Positions 3,805 through 34,484 of a stretch of DNA of 37,423 nt are shown piece by piece. The notes beneath the pieces are model-generated. The model made no database searches, had not been told where the DNA came from, and was given only the letters and a program-made list of their open reading frames with translations. Each line of letters starts with the position of its first letter. Positions within the stretch are counted from its first letter, which is position 1. Source of the stretch: an uncultured bacterium (GTDB taxonomy: Bacteria > Verrucomicrobiota > Kiritimatiellia > RFP12 > UBA1067); the NCBI GenBank assembly GCA_902799715.1, contig CADCBS010000026.1, forward strand, positions 15,084-52,506, read 5' to 3'. A program made the translations under genes and the position numbers.

Positions 3805-4152
3805 ATGGCATGTTTCACCGTTCCGCTGGCCGCCGCAGCCGCTGCAGGCGCGGCACGCCATTCGAAAACCTGCAGAAAATCCCGCAACCCCTTCGTCTCA
3901 AGGCTCGACTGGCTTGCGAAGATGATGCTGGGCGGAAGCTTCCTGCTTGCGATCGAGCACGTGTGGCACGGCGAAGTGCAGTTCACGTTCCCGTTCCTGA
4001 CCGCAGTGGAAGAAGGGCCTGAGGCCGTTTCGGAGATGCTGCGCGAAATGGCGACGCGCGGCGTGGCGATGGCCGTCGCCACGGTCGCGGCTTGGGCGTG
4101 CATGGTGGCGGCGGCGTGCACAGGCGCGCGAAAGGCGGCGGCCCATGTATGA
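3805..4152 (+). CDS. Small membrane protein heading the lar operon
   Basis: A 115-residue protein starting MACFTVPLA, with a strong AGGAG 8 bp before the ATG. It contains a hydrophobic segment around residues 38-50 (LAKMMLGGSFLLAIEHVWHG) and another near 88-106 (VAMAVATVAAWACMVAAA). The central part includes EHVWHGEVQ, with two His and acidic residues that could bind metal. The gene overlaps the next one by 8 bp and is the first gene of the nickel-pincer cofactor operon, so a membrane or metal-related accessory role is likely. I recall similar small proteins beside lar-type genes in other anaerobes but cannot verify that here. It does not resemble the known Lar nickel transporter proteins. 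Confidence 0.7.
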   Translation: MACFTVPLAAAAAAGAARHSKTCRKSRNPFVSRLDWLAKMMLGGSFLLAIEHVWHGEVQFTFPFLTAVEEGPEAVSEMLREMATRGVAMAVATVAAWACMVAAACTGARKAAAHV

Positions 4153-28021: not shown

Positions 28022-28057
28022 TTTTGTCAGATTTCCGCGGTTCCGGCGTATGTATCC
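28022..28057 (+). promoter_or_regulatory. Promoter-like element, copy 1 (before the ABC exporter)
   Basis: Begins TTTTGTCAGATT and has CGTATGTA 25 bp downstream. TTGTCA (28024-28029) is five of six to a -35 and TATGTA (28049-28054) stands 19 bp on. The same element with the same spacing recurs at 29714-29749 before the precursor peptide gene. Confidence 0.45.
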
Positions 28058-29734
28058 GTGAATATGGAAAGCAAATCCAAATCCGCATCCGCGGAAAACC
28101 GGGCGGCGCCGCGGGCCGGCCGCCTGCGTTTCCTCGCGTCGATACTCTTCTCGTCGCCGGCCGTGGCGTTCGTCCACGCCCCGGCACTCGCCGCGCAGAC
28201 CGCAGCCGGCATTGCGATCCCGTTCGCCGTGGGACGCTTCATCGACGCGCTCGTCGCCGGGACGCCGGCCGTCCGGCCGTTCGTCGCGTTCGCAACGCTG
28301 TCCGTCGCGTCCGCAGCGGCTTCGGCCCTGCTGCAGCGGTTCATCCTGCGCCGCGCGCGGCGCGTCGAGCTGGAGCTGCAATACCGCGTGCTCGACGCCG
28401 CGGCCGGCTACTCTCCGCACGATCTTTCCGCCATCGCGGAGGGCGGTCTGGTGGCCAAGCTCGTCCGCGACGCCGCGGCCGTCTCCGGATTCGTGGGCGG
28501 AATGTATCCGCGGCTCCTGGCGGCCGCGGTCACGATGGCCGCGGCCGGCTTCGCCCTGCATTCCCGCTCCCCGGCGCTCTGCGCCGGTTTCGTGGCGTTC
28601 ATCCCGCTGTCGGCCGCGATGTTCCTGCCGTTCGCCCGCCGGTTCTCCGAAAACTCCTCGGCGGTGCGCAAGCGCGGCGACAGGTCTTTCATCGTCCTGT
28701 TCGACTTCTTCCGCACGCTGCCGTTCCTGCGCCTGCTCGGCGCGGAGCGCCGCTTCGCCGCGACGGCGCGCGAGTCGCTGCGGGGGCTGAACGGATGCGG
28801 CGATTCGACAGATTCGCTGGTCACGGCGTTCGGCGCGCTTCTGTCCGCGATCCTCACGGCCGGCCAGATAGCGGTCCTGGGCATAGCGGGGACGCTCGCC
28901 GCGAACGGCTCGATCCCCGTGGGCGACGTCGTGGTCTACCAGATGCTGTTCATGTCCGCCATGCAGTCCGTGCAGGGCGTGGTCTCGCTCCTTCCGGGGG
29001 CCGCCGCGCTGCGCGAGGGCGTGGATTCCCTGCGCGAGGCGCTTTCGCATCCGCAGGAACGGCGGGGCGGCAGGTCCGCCGGCGCGGTGGAAAGCCTCGA
29101 ATTCAGGAACGTGACGTTCGCATATCCGGGCGGCGCACCGGTGGCGAAGGATTTCTCCGCCGTCTTCAGGCGCGGGCGAGCCGTGGCGTTCGCGGGCGCC
29201 AACGGCGCCGGCAAGACCACGCTCCTGAAACTCGCCGTCGGCGCGCTCGAGCCGCAATCGGGGGAGGTGCTCGTGAACGGCATCCCCTTGAAGGAGCTGG
29301 ACGCCGCGGAATTCAGGCGGGCGATCGGAGTGGTGTTCCAGGACAGCCTCGTCGTATCCGGCACGGTGCGCGACAACGTAACCCTGCGCGACCCGGCGTT
29401 CGGTCCGGCGGACGTCGAGGCCGCCGCCGCGGAAAGCGGGCTTGCGGAAGTGGCGGAAAAGCTCCCCGCCGGATACGACACCGCCGTCGGCGACGGCGGC
29501 CAGGCCCTTTCCGGCGGCGAGCGCCAGCGCCTCGCCATCGCCCGCGCGCTCGTGCGCAAGCCGGGGATCCTGGTGTTGGACGAAGCCACGAACCACCTCG
29601 ACGCGCAGGCGCGCGCCGCGTTCGGCGGCCTGCTCCGCCGGATATCGAAAGACCGCATAGTCCTGGTCGTAACCCACGACGACGCGACAGCCGGCATCTG
29701 CGACGAAAAAATATTTTGTCAGATTCCCGGATGA
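28058..29734 (+). CDS. ABC exporter of the graspetide locus
   Basis: A 558-residue half-transporter with fused membrane and ATPase domains. Residues about 25-315 are a type-1 exporter membrane domain with five to six hydrophobic segments. The nucleotide-binding domain has Walker A GANGAGKTT (380-388), signature LSGGERQR and Walker B ILVLDEATNHLD. There is no N-terminal C39 peptidase domain, so leader removal would need another protease. Start is GTG 28058 or ATG 28064, without a Shine-Dalgarno. Because it precedes a peptide gene and an ATP-grasp ligase in the same orientation, the likely cargo is the modified peptide, as for the exporter in microviridin clusters. CydCD-like or general lipid export cannot be excluded from sequence alone. 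Confidence 0.85.
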   Translation: MNMESKSKSASAENRAAPRAGRLRFLASILFSSPAVAFVHAPALAAQTAAGIAIPFAVGRFIDALVAGTPAVRPFVAFATLSVASAAASALLQRFILRRARRVELELQYRVLDAAAGYSPHDLSAIAEGGLVAKLVRDAAAVSGFVGGMYPRLLAAAVTMAAAGFALHSRSPALCAGFVAFIPLSAAMFLPFARRFSENSSAVRKRGDRSFIVLFDFFRTLPFLRLLGAERRFAATARESLRGLNGCGDSTDSLVTAFGALLSAILTAGQIAVLGIAGTLAANGSIPVGDVVVYQMLFMSAMQSVQGVVSLLPGAAALREGVDSLREALSHPQERRGGRSAGAVESLEFRNVTFAYPGGAPVAKDFSAVFRRGRAVAFAGANGAGKTTLLKLAVGALEPQSGEVLVNGIPLKELDAAEFRRAIGVVFQDSLVVSGTVRDNVTLRDPAFGPADVEAAAAESGLAEVAEKLPAGYDTAVGDGGQALSGGERQRLAIARALVRKPGILVLDEATNHLDAQARAAFGGLLRRISKDRIVLVVTHDDATAGICDEKIFCQIPG

Positions 29735-29749
29735 CGTCCGTATCTACTT
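29714..29749 (+). promoter_or_regulatory. Promoter-like element, copy 2 (before the precursor peptide)
   Basis: Begins TTTTGTCAGATT, overlapping the end of the exporter gene, with CGTATCTA 25 bp downstream: TTGTCA (29716-29721), a 19-bp gap and TATCTA (29741-29746). Spacing and outer sequences match copy 1 at 28022. The start of transcription would be near 29753. Confidence 0.45.
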
Positions 29750-29751
29750 TT

Positions 29752-29788
29752 GTTGCGGACGGGTGTCCGCAGCGTTTGGTTGACCAAA
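29752..29788 (+). promoter_or_regulatory. Two hairpins in the precursor leader
   Basis: GTTGCGGAC-GGGT-GTCCGCAGC forms a 9-bp stem with one wobble pair (29752-29773). It is followed directly by TTTGGT-TG-ACCAAA (29775-29788). An A-rich tract then leads to AAAGGAG. The structures could protect or regulate the short precursor mRNA. They are not followed by T runs and are therefore poor terminators. Confidence 0.4.
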
Positions 29789-29815
29789 ACAAAAAAAACA
29801 AAGGAGCAATCCAAA

Positions 29816-29941
29816 ATGACACCAAGCGAAGTCGCGACCGACGTCGCAAGCATCAGCCCCGTCGAGAACGGGAACATCGGCACTGGTACGAATTTCACGT
29901 ATACGTTCGAGCGTCTTGACGACTCGAACACGTGGGGCTGA
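29816..29941 (+). CDS. Graspetide-type precursor peptide, 41 residues
   Basis: A short gene with an excellent AAAGGAG 9 bp before the ATG. The N-terminal leader-like part is MTPSEVATDVASISPVENGN, and the C-terminal core-like part is IGTGTNFTYTFERLDDSNTW plus a final Gly. The core has hydroxyl residues Thr23, Thr25, Thr28, Thr30, Ser37 and Thr39, and acidic residues Glu32, Asp35 and Asp36. This is the composition that ATP-grasp ligases of the microviridin type link through side-chain ester bonds; no Lys is present, so amide rings are not expected. A terminator follows, then the ligase gene 185 bp downstream. The core does not match the microviridin TxKYPSD or plesiocin TTxxxxEE patterns. The call rests on context and composition. 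Confidence 0.72.
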   Translation: MTPSEVATDVASISPVENGNIGTGTNFTYTFERLDDSNTWG

Positions 29942-29960
29942 GACCATAATAACGGAAACC

Positions 29961-29990
29961 CGGGGGCTGGCGACCGCCAGCCCCCGTTTA
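29961..29990 (+). terminator. Terminator/attenuator between precursor and ligase
   Basis: CGGGGGCTGGC (29961-29971), loop GACC and GCCAGCCCCCG (29976-29986) form an 11-bp GC-rich stem followed by TTTA. Partial termination here would give many precursor transcripts and few ligase transcripts, a common arrangement in RiPP loci. Confidence 0.7.
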
Positions 29991-30022
29991 AAGCGCTCCC
30001 TCGCAGTGCCGCAAAACCGCGG

Positions 30023-30130
30023 ATGCGAGGCTTGCAACGGGCAGGCTCCGGTTTTCGCAGAGCCTCCGCCCCGGCGCTCGATGAATATTCCTCCGTCAAA
30101 GCACTATACGCAGACAGGACAAGACAATGA
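30023..30130 (+). other. Short open frame coupled to the ligase start (doubtful)
   Basis: A 35-codon frame from ATG 30023 stops at TGA 30128-30130, which overlaps the ligase ATG as ATGA. Its end reads SAPALDEYSSVKALYADRTR, with Ser, Tyr, Asp, Glu and Lys that could also be ligase substrates. It has no Shine-Dalgarno and its start is basic and Arg-rich. It may be a coupling frame, a second precursor or chance; the region also folds into small hairpins. Confidence 0.2.
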
Positions 30131-31062
30131 TTTTCATCGCCACCTGCAGCAAAGACACGACAACAGACATTGTCACGGGCGAACTTGACGCGTCCAGCGT
30201 CTTCCGCTTCAACATCGACAAGCCCGACGACTTCTCATGGGACTTCCACGCCGGCGGATTCCGCATCGCGGACGTGACGACAGACAGCGAAATCACCGGG
30301 AAGACCATTACTTCGTTTTACCTGAGGAAGCCGATGTTCCTCGATTCTGTCGACGTGCCGAAATACGGCTGCGTCGAGAACTGGCGGCGGGAAGAGACTT
30401 CGGAACTGCTCAACGACTTCTACCGCGAATGCCAAAGCCGGAACCTCGTCGTGCTCGTCCGCAGCAAAAACAGCCATTACGGCAAACTGCGCCAGCTGAT
30501 TGCCGCAAAGAAATACTTCCGCGTAGCGCCATGGCATTTCTTCCACGGCGAACTGCCGGAAGAACTGAAACGCGGCAGATGGGTCGTAAAGTCGATAACC
30601 CAGACGCCGGTAGGCCAAAGCAAGATATTCTTCGTGAAAGAGGTGGATCCGGCGGCGCTCGACCTTTCCTATCCGTGGTTCGTGCAGGAGCGGATTGATG
30701 GCGAGGAGGAAGTTACGGTCGTCTATATCGACGGCAAGACCTACGCCGCGAATGCACCGCGCGATTCTTTCGACACGGAAGATTCGCGGAAAACCCTTAT
30801 GGAGCATCCACGCGCGTGGCCGCGATGCGGACTTTCGGAGGAGGAGGAACGCGCCATCAAGGGCTTCATGGACGAGACCGGCTACAGATTCGGGCGCTTC
30901 GACTTCATAAGGAAAGACGGCGAGCTGTGGTTCCTCGAACTGAATCCGAACGGGCAGTGGGCGTGGCTTGACGAGAAGAACGAGCACGGGCTCGTCTCGA
31001 TGGTCGCCGACGCGATAAAGAGGGAAGACGCAGAGCACCGGAAGGCGCTTTCGCGCCTGTAG
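30127..31062 (+). CDS. ATP-grasp peptide ligase (MvdC/MvdD-like graspetide maturase)
   Basis: A 311-residue ATP-grasp enzyme. The N-terminal half is a pre-ATP-grasp domain (MIFIATCSKDTTTDIV, ITSFYLRKP). The ATP-grasp fold has the phosphate-binding lysine in RWVVKSI (Lys155), the hinge region YPWFVQERIDGEEEVTVVYI, then GRFDFIRKDGELWFLELNPN and GQWAWLDEKNEHGL. The ELNPNGQW motif (271-278) and downstream MVADAI are hallmarks of enzymes that form side-chain ester or amide rings in microviridin-type peptides. These ligases activate Asp/Glu side chains by phosphorylation. The usual DWR motif of microviridin ligases is not seen; DSRKTLMEHPRAWPRCG stands in its place. CAGGA precedes the ATG. Confidence 0.9.
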   Translation: MIFIATCSKDTTTDIVTGELDASSVFRFNIDKPDDFSWDFHAGGFRIADVTTDSEITGKTITSFYLRKPMFLDSVDVPKYGCVENWRREETSELLNDFYRECQSRNLVVLVRSKNSHYGKLRQLIAAKKYFRVAPWHFFHGELPEELKRGRWVVKSITQTPVGQSKIFFVKEVDPAALDLSYPWFVQERIDGEEEVTVVYIDGKTYAANAPRDSFDTEDSRKTLMEHPRAWPRCGLSEEEERAIKGFMDETGYRFGRFDFIRKDGELWFLELNPNGQWAWLDEKNEHGLVSMVADAIKREDAEHRKALSRL

Positions 31063-31083: not shown

Positions 31084-31707
31084 TCACTGGATGCGCGGCG
31101 GCGCGTCCATCTCCTCCAGCACCTGCCCGACCGTTGCGCGCAGTTTCGCGGACAGCCGTCTGCGGATCTGGTAGAGGTTGTCGCCGGTGATCCCGTAAAG
31201 CCTCGCGACGGTTTCCGTGTCCTGTCCTTCCACGGCGCTCGCCACGAACGCCGCGTAGTGCTCCGGGCGCACATCCGGCTTGATGCGCCGCAGAGCCTCC
31301 TCGAGCGCGGCGGCCTGCCACTCGCGCTCCTCGAAAGCGGCGTCGGCCGGATTCCCGGCGCCGGCCTTCGCCTCTTCAAGGTACGACGCCTTCAGGTTAC
31401 GGTCTCTCATGCCGGATCTGAGCCTGTCGTTGACGCGCCAGCGCACCAGGCTGGAGAGCCAGGCCCTGAAGCGGCCCTTCCCGCGGTCGTAGCGGAACCC
31501 GGGCAGATTCCGCGCAAGGTCGGCGAACACGATCTGCACTATGTCATCGGCGTCCGCCGCGTTCAGCCCCTTGGAGCGCGCGATGGAAAATACGAAGCCA
31601 GCGTACAGGTCGAAGAGTCGTTGCCACGCCGCCTCGTTCTCGGTGTTCGCAACTGCCCTCAGCACGCTGGAGCGCGTCGATTCGTTGTTGAAGTGCCTAT
31701 AGGTCAT
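31084..31707 (-). CDS. ECF-type RNA polymerase sigma factor
   Basis: A 207-residue sigma-70 family protein. Region 2 is residues about 25-95: WQRLFDLYAGFVFSIARSKG, ADADDIVQIVFADLAR and GRFRAWLSSLVRWRVNDRLR. A linker leads to region 4, about 140-200, with EGQDTETVARLYGITGDNLY and QIRRRLSAKLR as the helix-turn-helix. The ATG overlaps the kinase stop as ATGA, so the two are translated together and the kinase is the likely regulator. Sigma factors paired with Ser/Thr kinases are frequent in PVC bacteria. The target promoters are not identifiable here. It converges with the graspetide ligase gene 21 bp away. Confidence 0.9.
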   Translation of the reverse strand: MTYRHFNNESTRSSVLRAVANTENEAAWQRLFDLYAGFVFSIARSKGLNAADADDIVQIVFADLARNLPGFRYDRGKGRFRAWLSSLVRWRVNDRLRSGMRDRNLKASYLEEAKAGAGNPADAAFEEREWQAAALEEALRRIKPDVRPEHYAAFVASAVEGQDTETVARLYGITGDNLYQIRRRLSAKLRATVGQVLEEMDAPPRIQ

Positions 31708-33410
31708 TTTGAAGTCTTCCTTTTTTTCCGGCGGGCCTCAGCTGTCTTGAATATCTCGTCCAGGTCCCAGTAGCTGCCTTGAACCCTCACCCAGTTTGGA
31801 TTCGGCTTCCAGTTTTCGTCTTTCCCCTCTGTCGCCCTCAATATTTCCAGCACCCGTTCTTCCAGCTCCGCTCTTTCTACAACCGCGATGTGCGCGGATA
31901 GAATCTTCTTGTCAACGACATGGCGAAGATATGGATTCAACGTCCTGATCGCATCATCCACATCCAGTTTGAGGATGTAGAGTTTCACCGCGACCTTCCT
32001 CATCTTCATCCTCAACTCCTTCAATTCCGTCAAGGCTTTTTCCATCTTTTCCTTCTCTGCGGCGTCGCTGGAATTTTTAATCTTGAAATAGTAGCGATTC
32101 ATGGTGCCCACGCATGTTTTATACGCGTACAGAGCGTCATCTACCGAGGAATCCATGTATTTCTTGATACTCGCAAGGTTTGCCAGCTGCTGCAATTGGT
32201 CCGCGATTTCCTTCGCGGGTTTGACTTGGGCTTCAAGTTTCTTGCGTTTACGGTTCGCGGACTCGATTTCGGCAGTCAACCGTTCGCGTTCGCTGCTCGA
32301 AGATTCTATTTCGGCAGACATCCGTTCGCGCACACTTTTCAAGGATTTTATTTCGGCAGCCATCCGCTCGCGTTCGCGGGTCGAGGATTCCATTTCAGCC
32401 GCCATCCGCTCGCGTTCGCGGGTCGAGGATTCCATTTCGGCCGCCATCCGTTTGCGTTCGCCGCTCGAGGATTCCATTTCAGCCGCCATCCGTACGCGTT
32501 CGCGGTAGGACGCGTAAGCGTACGCCGCCGCGGCGGCGAGCATGCCGGCGATCGCGGTTTTTACCAGCCACGAACATCTTGCGACGGCCATCCTGGCGCG
32601 GAGCAGCTTCAAGTCCTTCAGCAGCGCCTTCGCAGACCGGTACCGGCGGGCGGGAACAGGGTCCGTCGCCTTGTTGAGGATCCGCCACCATGCCGGGAAC
32701 AGCCTTGCGCCGGTGTCCGCCTCCTGCGCGGGGCCTTTGTCGAGCTCCTCCACGCTCCTGCCGAAGCTCGCCGCCTTGAGCGTGAGCCCGAGGCTGTAGA
32801 CGTCGCCGCCCGCCGCCGTGAAATTCTCCGGCGGCACGAAGCCGGGCGTACCGACGACAGACCCGGACTCCGCCTCTTCGACGAGCAGCCCCGGATCGGA
32901 CAGCACGGGCCTTCCGCCGACGTATATCACGTTCCCCGGCTTGATGTCGCGATGGAGGAGATGATGGCGCTGCAGCGTCGCAAGGCCCTTGGCGAGCGCG
33001 ATGCCGAGACCTGCGCATTCCTTGAGGGACAGGGCCTTTTCGCCTTCTATCGCCTTCGCGAGCGTCTTCGGGCGGTACTGTTCCGCGGGGACGCCGGCGG
33101 CGCCGGACTCGTCGTCCGCGAGGTCCATCGCGTACCAGAACCCCCAGTCCGCCTCGGCGAGTTCGAGCATCCTCACCAGGCCTTCGGCGGCGGGCAGCGT
33201 CTTGTAGTGCTTCGCGCCGCGCAGCTCGCGGCCGTAGCGGCCGGGGCCGGCGGCTTCCTTCCGGCAGACCTTCACCGCGGCGCGCCGTCCGCCGGGCCCT
33301 TCCGCCAGGTACACGGTTCCGTACGCGCCCCGGCCGGCTTCCTTCAGAAGCCGCCAGGCGCCGCATTCCACAAGGCCGCCCGTTTCGCCTGCCGTCTGCG
33401 ATATCGACAT
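31704..33410 (-). CDS. Membrane Ser/Thr protein kinase with coiled-coil sensor
   Basis: A 568-residue kinase from ATG 33410, with GGGAGG upstream. Kinase domain about 18-270: Gly loop GRGAYGTVY (26-34), Lys47 in AAVKV, catalytic HRDIKPGN (153-160) and PPE (193-195). The magnesium motif reads DPG (172-174) rather than DFG, an unusual change at the middle residue. A single transmembrane helix spans about 282-301. A periplasmic coiled coil of 14-residue repeats (RERERMAAEMESST type, 303-390) and a helical C-terminal region follow. It is translationally coupled to the ECF sigma factor gene, suggesting that it senses envelope or extracellular signals and controls that sigma factor. Confidence 0.9.
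   Translation of the reverse strand: MSISQTAGETGGLVECGAWRLLKEAGRGAYGTVYLAEGPGGRRAAVKVCRKEAAGPGRYGRELRGAKHYKTLPAAEGLVRMLELAEADWGFWYAMDLADDESGAAGVPAEQYRPKTLAKAIEGEKALSLKECAGLGIALAKGLATLQRHHLLHRDIKPGNVIYVGGRPVLSDPGLLVEEAESGSVVGTPGFVPPENFTAAGGDVYSLGLTLKAASFGRSVEELDKGPAQEADTGARLFPAWWRILNKATDPVPARRYRSAKALLKDLKLLRARMAVARCSWLVKTAIAGMLAAAAAYAYASYRERVRMAAEMESSSGERKRMAAEMESSTRERERMAAEMESSTRERERMAAEIKSLKSVRERMSAEIESSSSERERLTAEIESANRKRKKLEAQVKPAKEIADQLQQLANLASIKKYMDSSVDDALYAYKTCVGTMNRYYFKIKNSSDAAEKEKMEKALTELKELRMKMRKVAVKLYILKLDVDDAIRTLNPYLRHVVDKKILSAHIAVVERAELEERVLEILRATEGKDENWKPNPNWVRVQGSYWDLDEIFKTAEARRKKRKTSK
32241..32504 (-). repeat. 42-bp tandem repeats encoding the kinase coiled coil
   Basis: Imperfect 42-bp repeats inside the kinase gene encode 14-residue coiled-coil units. 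Two neighbouring copies starting at 32359 and 32401 are identical over nearly 40 bp (beginning GCCATCCGCTCGCGTTCGCG). The others are degraded. Recombination between copies could change the length of the stalk. Confidence 0.85.
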
Positions 33411-33489
33411 GGAACAATCCCTCCCGGCCTGAAGCCGTTTTTCCGCGGCCCCGCTTCCGGCGCGACCGCGCCGCCGCCGCTTGGAGCGC

Positions 33490-33500
33490 AGTATACCAAA
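33490..33500 (-). promoter_or_regulatory. Promoter of the kinase-sigma operon
   Basis: Minus-strand extended -10 TTTGGTATACT. The start of transcription is predicted near 33483, leaving a 73-nt leader. No good -35 is visible. Confidence 0.55.
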
Positions 33501-33612
33501 TGGCGGGCCGTTCGTCCGCGCGGGCGAAAATAAAATCCCGCGCGGTCCGGATCCGTCCGGCGGCGCCCGCGGACTCGCCGGCTCCGGGCGTTTCGCCGGG
33601 CGCGTTCCCGTC

Positions 33613-33641
33613 TTGAACGCGGCGGGGGTCTTTGCTATAAT
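33613..33641 (+). promoter_or_regulatory. Promoter of the RodZ-like gene
   Basis: TTGAAC (33613-33618), a 17-bp spacer and a perfect TATAAT (33636-33641) preceded by TGC, an extended -10. The start of transcription is near 33648, 18 nt before the ATG at 33666. Confidence 0.7.
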
Positions 33642-33665
33642 CGCGGAAACACTCCGGGGAACACT

Positions 33666-34484
33666 ATGCAATTCGGCGAAACATTGAGAAAAGCTCGCGA
33701 GGCCAAGGGCCTTTCGCATTCACAGGTGGCGGAAGAAACGCACATGCTCGTGCAGATAGTGCAGGACATGGAGAACGAGGACTTCCGCCGGATTCCGGCT
33801 GCAGTATACGGGCGCGGCTTCGTGCGGCTGTTCGCCGAATGCGTGGGGCTCGACCCGCGACCGCTGCTCCTTGAATTCAACAGCCTTTACGGAGCGTCGA
33901 AAGACGCCCCCGCCGCGGCGCACGCAGCGCCGCCCCCCGCGCGGCAGCCCGCGCCGGAAAAGGAGTTCCGCTTCGGCGGACCCGCCGAGCCGCCCGCGGC
34001 GGGGGACGGACCCGCGCAGCAGGACCTTCCGCCGGCGCCTCCGCGCGGAACGGCGGGACTGGAGCTTTTCGACCCCTCGGCGCCGGCGAACGTCCAGCCG
34101 CCGCCCGCCGCGGAGCCGCGCAGGCCCGATCCGGGCGCGTCCCGCTTCGCCCCGCCCGAAGACGACGAAGCGTACGACGAACGCACGTTCCAGGAAAAGC
34201 TTTCCGACGCGGCGCGCAGGTTCCGCTCCGGAGTCTCCGCCCTGGCGGGGAACATCTCCCGCAGGACGAAGCGCATACCGCGCAGGACCAGGCGCACGAT
34301 CCTCGTGGCTGCGGCGGCCCTTGCGGCGGCCGCCCTGTGCGTGAAGGCGTGTTCCGCCATACGCTCGTCGCTTTCCGAACCCGGAAAGCCGGAAAACCAA
34401 GGCGCAGGCGCCGCGCAGGCGCCTGCCAAGGCGAGAGCCCCGGCGGGCGGAAGCTACATCCCGACCGACCTGTACAAAGACTGA
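33666..34484 (+). CDS. RodZ-like membrane protein with N-terminal helix-turn-helix
   Basis: A 272-residue protein. Residues 1-75 are an HTH_25/Xre-type domain, FGETLRKAREAKGLSHSQVA then RRIPAAVYGRGFVRLFAECV, as in RodZ, which links MreB to the wall-elongation machinery. A long Pro/Ala-rich linker (about 80-180) follows, then a basic stretch and one transmembrane helix near 219-236 (RTILVAAAALAAAALCVKAC). Only about 35 residues follow the helix, so the periplasmic domain of classical RodZ is missing. GGGGA precedes the ATG. A short cytoskeletal adaptor is the best guess, with a membrane-bound regulator as the alternative. Confidence 0.78.
   Translation: MQFGETLRKAREAKGLSHSQVAEETHMLVQIVQDMENEDFRRIPAAVYGRGFVRLFAECVGLDPRPLLLEFNSLYGASKDAPAAAHAAPPPARQPAPEKEFRFGGPAEPPAAGDGPAQQDLPPAPPRGTAGLELFDPSAPANVQPPPAAEPRRPDPGASRFAPPEDDEAYDERTFQEKLSDAARRFRSGVSALAGNISRRTKRIPRRTRRTILVAAAALAAAALCVKACSAIRSSLSEPGKPENQGAGAAQAPAKARAPAGGSYIPTDLYKD

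Follow-up and report, generated by a model that had tools for sequence, protein, structure and literature searches.

The 37,423-nucleotide (nt) stretch of contig CADCBS010000026.1 analysed here (the window), from an uncultured rumen-type bacterium of the class Kiritimatiellia, carries a three-gene locus that very probably makes a secreted, side-chain-cyclised peptide of a previously undescribed group. Genes for an ATP-binding cassette (ABC) exporter, a 41-residue precursor peptide and an ATP-grasp ligase follow one another in that order on the + strand, all in one orientation and within 3 kb, as a first reading of the DNA alone (the original prediction) had claimed. Comparative evidence that the locus is of graspetide type is strong. 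Our best explanation, which we consider likely, is that it makes a graspetide-type ribosomally synthesized and post-translationally modified peptide (RiPP) under the control of a kinase and a sigma factor encoded next to it.

The ATP-grasp ligase

The ligase belongs to the graspetide synthetase lineage, as judged by its phylogeny, hidden Markov models (HMMs), fold searches and invariant alignment columns. In a maximum-likelihood tree of 54 ATP-grasp proteins, a sample drawn by the patterns PNGQWAW and TGYRFGRF rather than an even survey, it falls in a 14-member clade (support 99/95) inside a 16-member clade (100/100, stem 1.0). The latter is nested in a 24-member clade rich in Planctomycetes–Verrucomicrobia–Chlamydiae (PVC) bacteria (100/100, stem 1.31), among MvdC/MvdD, TgmB and other graspetide ligases. 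The ligase does not group with non-peptide ATP-grasp enzymes, the outcome that the original prediction had named as its refutation; Escherichia coli RimK is a very long outgroup (branch ~5). The NCBIfam models that match the ligase (TIGR04187, TIGR04185, TIGR04192 and TIGR04184) all describe graspetide-type maturases, beside a marginal match to PRK06849. Likewise, all 19 close ligases match graspetide maturase models, one of them also PRK06849 marginally. There was no significant Pfam match to the ligase; its sequence matches in the PDB are AMdnB, MdnB, 9bou (PruB), CdnC and MdnC.

Fold searches agree with this placement. An AlphaFold model built from 52 sequences reached a predicted local distance difference test score (pLDDT) of 93 and was used, one built from 19 near sequences being poor (pLDDT 60). 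AMdnB, PruB, CdnC, MdnC, MdnB and PsnB appear within the first 29 places of the search, with Ddl, LysX/ArgX and RimK among others at lower ranks. A non-peptide ATP-grasp origin of the ligase is ruled out by the tree, HMM and fold results.

Residues R27, R67, K120, K155, Q187, D219, R221, D259, E271 and N273 are invariant in an alignment of 52 diverse ligases, and the predicted ELNPNGQW motif is found at residues 271–278. The original prediction had also taken the lack of a DWR motif as a mark of difference from the well-studied groups. This is true to the letter, the tripeptide of distant relatives being DSR in the window ligase, but the site itself is kept, since both its D and its R are among the invariant residues. 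With the motif conserved as DxR, its supposed loss is a weak argument for being different, and absence of DWR is ruled out as a group-defining trait.

Precursor peptide and exporter

The 41-residue peptide gene is genuine. In 23 contigs a homologue of the precursor, with the same leader, is encoded 53–185 nt before the ligase gene in open reading frames (ORFs) of 32–47 codons, and hence the precursor is no chance ORF. Its Shine-Dalgarno sequence is AAAGGAG (29800–29806). Alignment of 22 precursors shows M1, P3 and T28 in all of them, and T2, A7, T8, T25, D35 and D36 in at least 90%. The predicted leader (about residues 1–21) follows the consensus MTPN(D/E)IAT(D/S)I(A/S)GL or nearly so, often with a G-N-I/V step next. 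The core follows T-x-x-T-(Y/Q/F/H)-(T/S/C)-...-D-D, the stretch from donors to DD being variable in sequence and length. The gene thus encodes what is expected of a graspetide precursor, a leader and a core with T/S/K nucleophiles and acidic residues; T25, T28 and T30 are candidate donors and D35 and D36 candidate acceptors. Two acceptors conserved throughout suggest two rings, which is the most likely number, and a third core nucleophile may be a spectator; in L047 and L055, for example, this third position is taken by Cys. The locus of genome G158, looked at once this pattern was set, has a ligase that is 45% identical, a precursor of the expected type (MTPSDMATSLDSMTSPGGIGLSTNFTQSWTGSSFSMDDANTWD) and a sigma factor homologue nearby.

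Precursors of the same type occur in ~24 contigs, mostly from rumen or gut metagenome-assembled genomes (MAGs) of Kiritimatiellae and Verrucomicrobia. Named relatives are MAGs of Kiritimatiellae, Verrucomicrobia and Lentisphaerae, again mostly from rumen or gut, and the close ones are Kiritimatiellae and Verrucomicrobia, which bears out the suggestion of a PVC bacterium. The ligase is patchily distributed (21/115 family genomes; 25/162 order genomes, 7/33 genera), with no match in the sole other genome of the window's genus.

Some loci depart from this pattern. At L046, on the same contig as L028, the precursor ORF upstream of the ligase at 4045 ends at CSG by an in-frame TGA, and the DNA past it still encodes the conserved DD-containing end (NGQRLDDSHTWD). 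Read this way, L046 is a decayed or misread copy and shows that the DD end is coding. A marine Kiritimatiellae MAG (L109:5326-5995) has several tandem precursor-like ORFs of a different type (TxTxTI..V..EN.D.D) before a graspetide-type ligase. In the same large clade, more remote ligases (at L065, L071 and L072) have upstream of them 63–65-residue ORFs of another kind, lacking the TGTCA-CGTA motif described below. A contig labelled as a Selenomonadaceae MAG (L048) carries a Kiritimatiellae-type locus at 77% identity and is probably misbinned.

Within the window's own genome, no extra copies of the precursor region were found, and a second locus was ruled out by the presence of only one ligase. 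At the end of contig C114 (L136, G000:C114:477), another exporter start, truncated, follows a variant of the motif, CGTCAGATT...CGTAT; the aligned pieces of this contig are 92–99% like the loci of other species, and it is possibly a second locus or a misbinned contig.

The exporter contains ABC_membrane and ABC_tran domains and lacks PF03412, in line with the predicted absence of a C39 peptidase, which places it outside the peptidase-containing ABC transporters as defined by an N-terminal C39 domain. Its Walker A motif is GANGAGKT and its signature LSGGE. In the PDB it comes closest to ABCB-type exporters at large; peptidase-containing bacteriocin transporters rank lower. Two start codons are readable; in relatives the gene starts shortly after the −10 element, which favours ATG 28064 and suggests a start ~12 nt past the −10-like element here. 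With the motif so shortly before its start, the exporter is probably translated from a near-leaderless mRNA.

Promoter motif and the sigma/kinase neighbourhood

Two exact copies of the motif TGTCAGATT-N13-CGTAT are present in the window, one before the exporter (P1) and one before the precursor (P2). Its TGTCA and CGT elements resemble promoters of extracytoplasmic function (ECF) sigma factors. Exact sites number 74, in 30 of 112 family genomes, and a reversed control gave 0. With small variants allowed (such as CGTAA or one extra spacer base), all 23 of 23 contigs have the motif at 51–71 nt before the start of the precursor; an alignment of 5' flanks has a conserved TTTTGTCAGATT...CGTAT that overlaps the exporter gene end.

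The presumed 5' untranslated region (UTR) of the precursor contains a hairpin in which 4 pairs are changed on both sides in a 19-sequence alignment, 93.9% of cells being paired versus 32–49% for slid partners. A second hairpin, past the precursor gene, has a comparable counterpart in nearly all relatives and would fit a precursor expressed at a high level and a ligase at a lower one.

Convergent with the ligase gene is that of an ECF sigma factor, overlapped by the gene of a Ser/Thr kinase whose true start may be internal. The pair lies near the ligase in ~18–20 loci, its side or orientation being changed in some. Sigma orthologues (E<1e-40) are present in 19/112 genomes, 16 of which have the ligase. 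Both the motif (15/19 genomes with the orthologue versus 15/93 without; Fisher p=2e-7) and the ligase (16/19 versus 4/93; p=4e-13) go with the sigma factor, with p values that ignore relatedness among these genomes and so are optimistic; the MAGs are incomplete, which makes absence weak evidence. An anti-phage defence role was rejected, PADLOC matching only generic kinase and ATPase domains.

Genomes G052, G089 and G109 have the sigma factor and no ligase. There the motif lies 53–260 nt past the sigma gene and precedes a structured RNA, conserved and ~105 nt long, that has 6 covarying pairs and is U-rich at its end. This RNA is found in many family genomes, with two copies in the window's own (contigs C14 and C91), and is a probable sigma-dependent small RNA. 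Neither it nor the UTR matched an Rfam family at the gathering cut-off. Other genes behind the motif encode HtrA-like proteases, MreB-like proteins (one fused to an ADP-ribosylglycohydrolase domain), Sel1-repeat proteins and a type III glutamine synthetase, which suggests a regulon of envelope or general stress type.

Xanthomonas citri (PknS/EcfK) and Vibrio parahaemolyticus (PknT/EcfP) have ECF sigma factors that are activated by kinases (PMC13147305, PMC8999054). As in those systems, a Ser/Thr kinase gene adjoins the sigma gene in the window, and activation by phosphorylation is predicted. In contrast to ECF43 members, which lack DAED, the window sigma factor retains an acidic DADD stretch, and its predicted target is a RiPP locus, not a type VI secretion system or polymyxin resistance. 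The graspetide appears, from gene order and promoter conservation, to be under a kinase–ECF stress circuit.

Features of the locus and of motif-linked elements elsewhere; positions are those of the window unless preceded by a locus handle (L)
Feature	Position	Strand	Basis or remark
ECF-type promoter-like motif P1, TGTCAGATT-N13-CGTAT, before exporter	28025..28051	+	Exact match; same motif before the ABC gene in most relatives
ABC half-exporter (transmembrane and nucleotide-binding domains, no C39 peptidase)	28064..29734; also readable from GTG 28058	+	Pfam ABC_membrane/ABC_tran
ECF-type promoter-like motif P2, precursor, overlapping exporter gene end	29717..29743	+	Exact match
Presumed precursor 5' UTR: hairpin (29752-29773) and TTGGTTGACCAA palindrome (29776-29787)	29752..29787	+	Covariation
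Precursor gene, 41 residues/41 codons, MTPSEVATDVASISPVENGNIGTGTNFTYTFERLDDSNTWG	29816..29941	+	Conserved in 22 aligned precursors
Strong hairpin GGGGGCTGGCG/CGCCAGCCCCC then GTTT, presumed attenuator/terminator	29962..29985	+	Between precursor and ligase genes
Graspetide-type ATP-grasp ligase, 311 residues, D219-S-R221 and ELNPNGQW	30127..31062	+	Tree, HMMs, fold searches, invariant columns
ECF sigma factor, convergent with ligase, predicted regulator	31084..31707	-	Sigma70_r2 and TIGR02937 above cut-off
Hanks-type Ser/Thr kinase with hydrophobic segment and coiled-coil-like tail	31704..33719	-	Pkinase PF00069, HRDIKPGN
Structured RNA directly 3' of TGTCAGATT-N13-CGTAT	L167:4671-4778 (-), L187:2752-2859 (+), L195:5083-5190 (-), others		
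Motif before trypsin/HtrA-like proteases and MreB-like proteins	L171:3-1052 (-), L181:4797-6254 (-), L185:1079-3142 (-), L188:3664-4722 (+)		

Proposed mechanism and relation to known systems

From the gene content, the ligase family and the conserved precursor, promoter motif and sigma/kinase neighbourhood, all shown by sequence comparison, we infer the following route. The ATP-grasp ligase would bind the short N-terminal leader of the precursor and phosphorylate the side chains of the Asp residues that form the C-terminal DD pair; each activated Asp would then be joined to Thr, possibly Ser or Cys, side chains of TxxTx(T/S/C), most likely closing two rings. An unlinked protease would cut off the leader, and the product would exit via the dedicated half-exporter. 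Exporter and precursor would be transcribed from the ECF-type promoters P1 and P2, both recognised by the adjacent sigma factor, itself probably activated via phosphorylation by the co-encoded kinase. In relatives, the same regulon would take in envelope-type stress genes and the small RNA.

Several observations weigh against this route. For every named graspetide model, the ligase scores far under the curated cut-off, and whole-chain superposition of its pLDDT 93 model on PDB ligases is poor (TM-score ~0.47, root mean square deviation ~16 Å), so that the model serves as ranking evidence only. The precursor leader lacks PFFARFL, and a Phhx(1,2)h motif is not clearly visible in it (compared with PMC8939145). 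As predicted originally, the stretch from exporter to ligase contains no protease gene; a dedicated C39 protease is absent from the locus, and the rest of the genome has a single weak C39 match. At G158 the motif lies ~265 nt upstream of the precursor, versus 51–71 nt elsewhere. Finally, the motif is present in 15 genomes lacking a detected sigma orthologue, 4 of which have the ligase, the rest being unexplained; another sigma factor could read it there.

This last point bears on an alternative in which the graspetide locus is real, the kinase/sigma pair is a mere syntenic neighbour and the motif is read by some other sigma factor. Other ECF candidates in these genomes, and the lack of an exact motif before the kinase gene in the window, fit such an arrangement. 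We nevertheless hold it to be unlikely, since the pair stays by the ligase through changes of side and orientation, even in the distant loci of G157, G158, G159 and G138, where a sigma factor diverged to 41–47% identity is still within a few kb. Moreover, in ligase-free genomes the pair adjoins the motif-driven RNA, and the TGTCA/CGT elements suit an ECF sigma factor. Improbable in our estimate is that the ligase is a graspetide relative with another peptide reaction, such as RimK- or Pgm1-like amino-acid or peptide ligation, and performs no side-chain macrocyclisation. Such families are hard to separate without phylogeny (PMC8939145), RimK-type enzymes share the fold and turn up in the fold searches, and the low HMM scores would suit this reading. 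Opposed to it are the position of the ligase inside the graspetide ligases, the retained DxR and other invariant columns, and the conservation in the cores of Thr residues and an Asp pair that terminus ligation would not need. That the peptide is a small regulatory or structural one, unmodified by the ligase, would fit its very short length and the lack of a canonical double-glycine leader, but is highly improbable given its pairing with the ligase in these loci, its conserved leader and variable core, and its conserved donor and acceptor residues.

The graspetide-type locus thus favoured resembles those of microviridin (MdnA/B/C), AMdnB, chryseoviridin (CdnC), plesiocin (PsnB) and PruB in its homologous ATP-grasp ligase with a DxR site and ExNPxG-type motif; it also shares with them an N-terminal leader, a core of Thr donors and acidic acceptors, and an adjacent ABC exporter. 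It differs in the separate long-stemmed clade of its ligase, with DSR in place of DWR, in precursors of 32–47 residues whose leader is very short and whose core follows TxxTx(T/S/C)...DD, in an exporter lacking a peptidase domain and in its putative kinase/ECF promoter control. It does not belong to the microviridin group (group 1: PFFARFL leader, microviridin-type core, two ligases MvdC/MvdD), having one ligase in the genome, another leader and core, and scores under the MvdC/MvdD cut-offs. TIGR04187, of the actinobacterial TgmA/TgmB type, gives the ligase its best NCBIfam score, 79 bits; the cut-off is 350 bits, the window locus has no methyltransferase, and the ligase stands on a separate branch of the tree.

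Published surveys list 174 precursor families (PMC8939145) and 43 graspetide groups with >20,000 predicted graspetides (PMC13097080). Verrucomicrobia, Kiritimatiellae and Lentisphaerae are not named in the main texts of either, and the papers covered by our literature search contain no report of graspetides in them. A new graspetide group, as first proposed, is plausible because both the ligase clade and the precursor family are distinct, though an earlier computational listing of it may exist in the supplements of these papers. All graspetides characterised by the time of one survey were protease inhibitors (PMC8939145), and by analogy this one may be as well; a role connected with proteases is an appealing possibility, given that the motif also precedes HtrA-like genes. 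Tentatively, and as a possibility we would put below even chances, the graspetide belongs to its producer's own envelope-stress circuit, a kinase–ECF regulon that would couple a secreted ring peptide, perhaps a protease inhibitor, to an HtrA-type protease, MreB and a sigma-dependent small RNA.

The locus extends the graspetides by a distinct family, found in uncultured rumen Kiritimatiellae, whose more than 20 natural precursor variants with one common leader are suited to combinatorial work on ring formation. To our knowledge, the physiological role of most graspetides is unknown; hence the regulatory link, if true, would offer an uncommon way to learn under what conditions, and to what end, a graspetide is produced, and the promoter motif renders the kinase–ECF regulon directly testable. 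Should the envelope-stress circuit prove real, this RiPP would serve the physiology of its producer and not competition alone.

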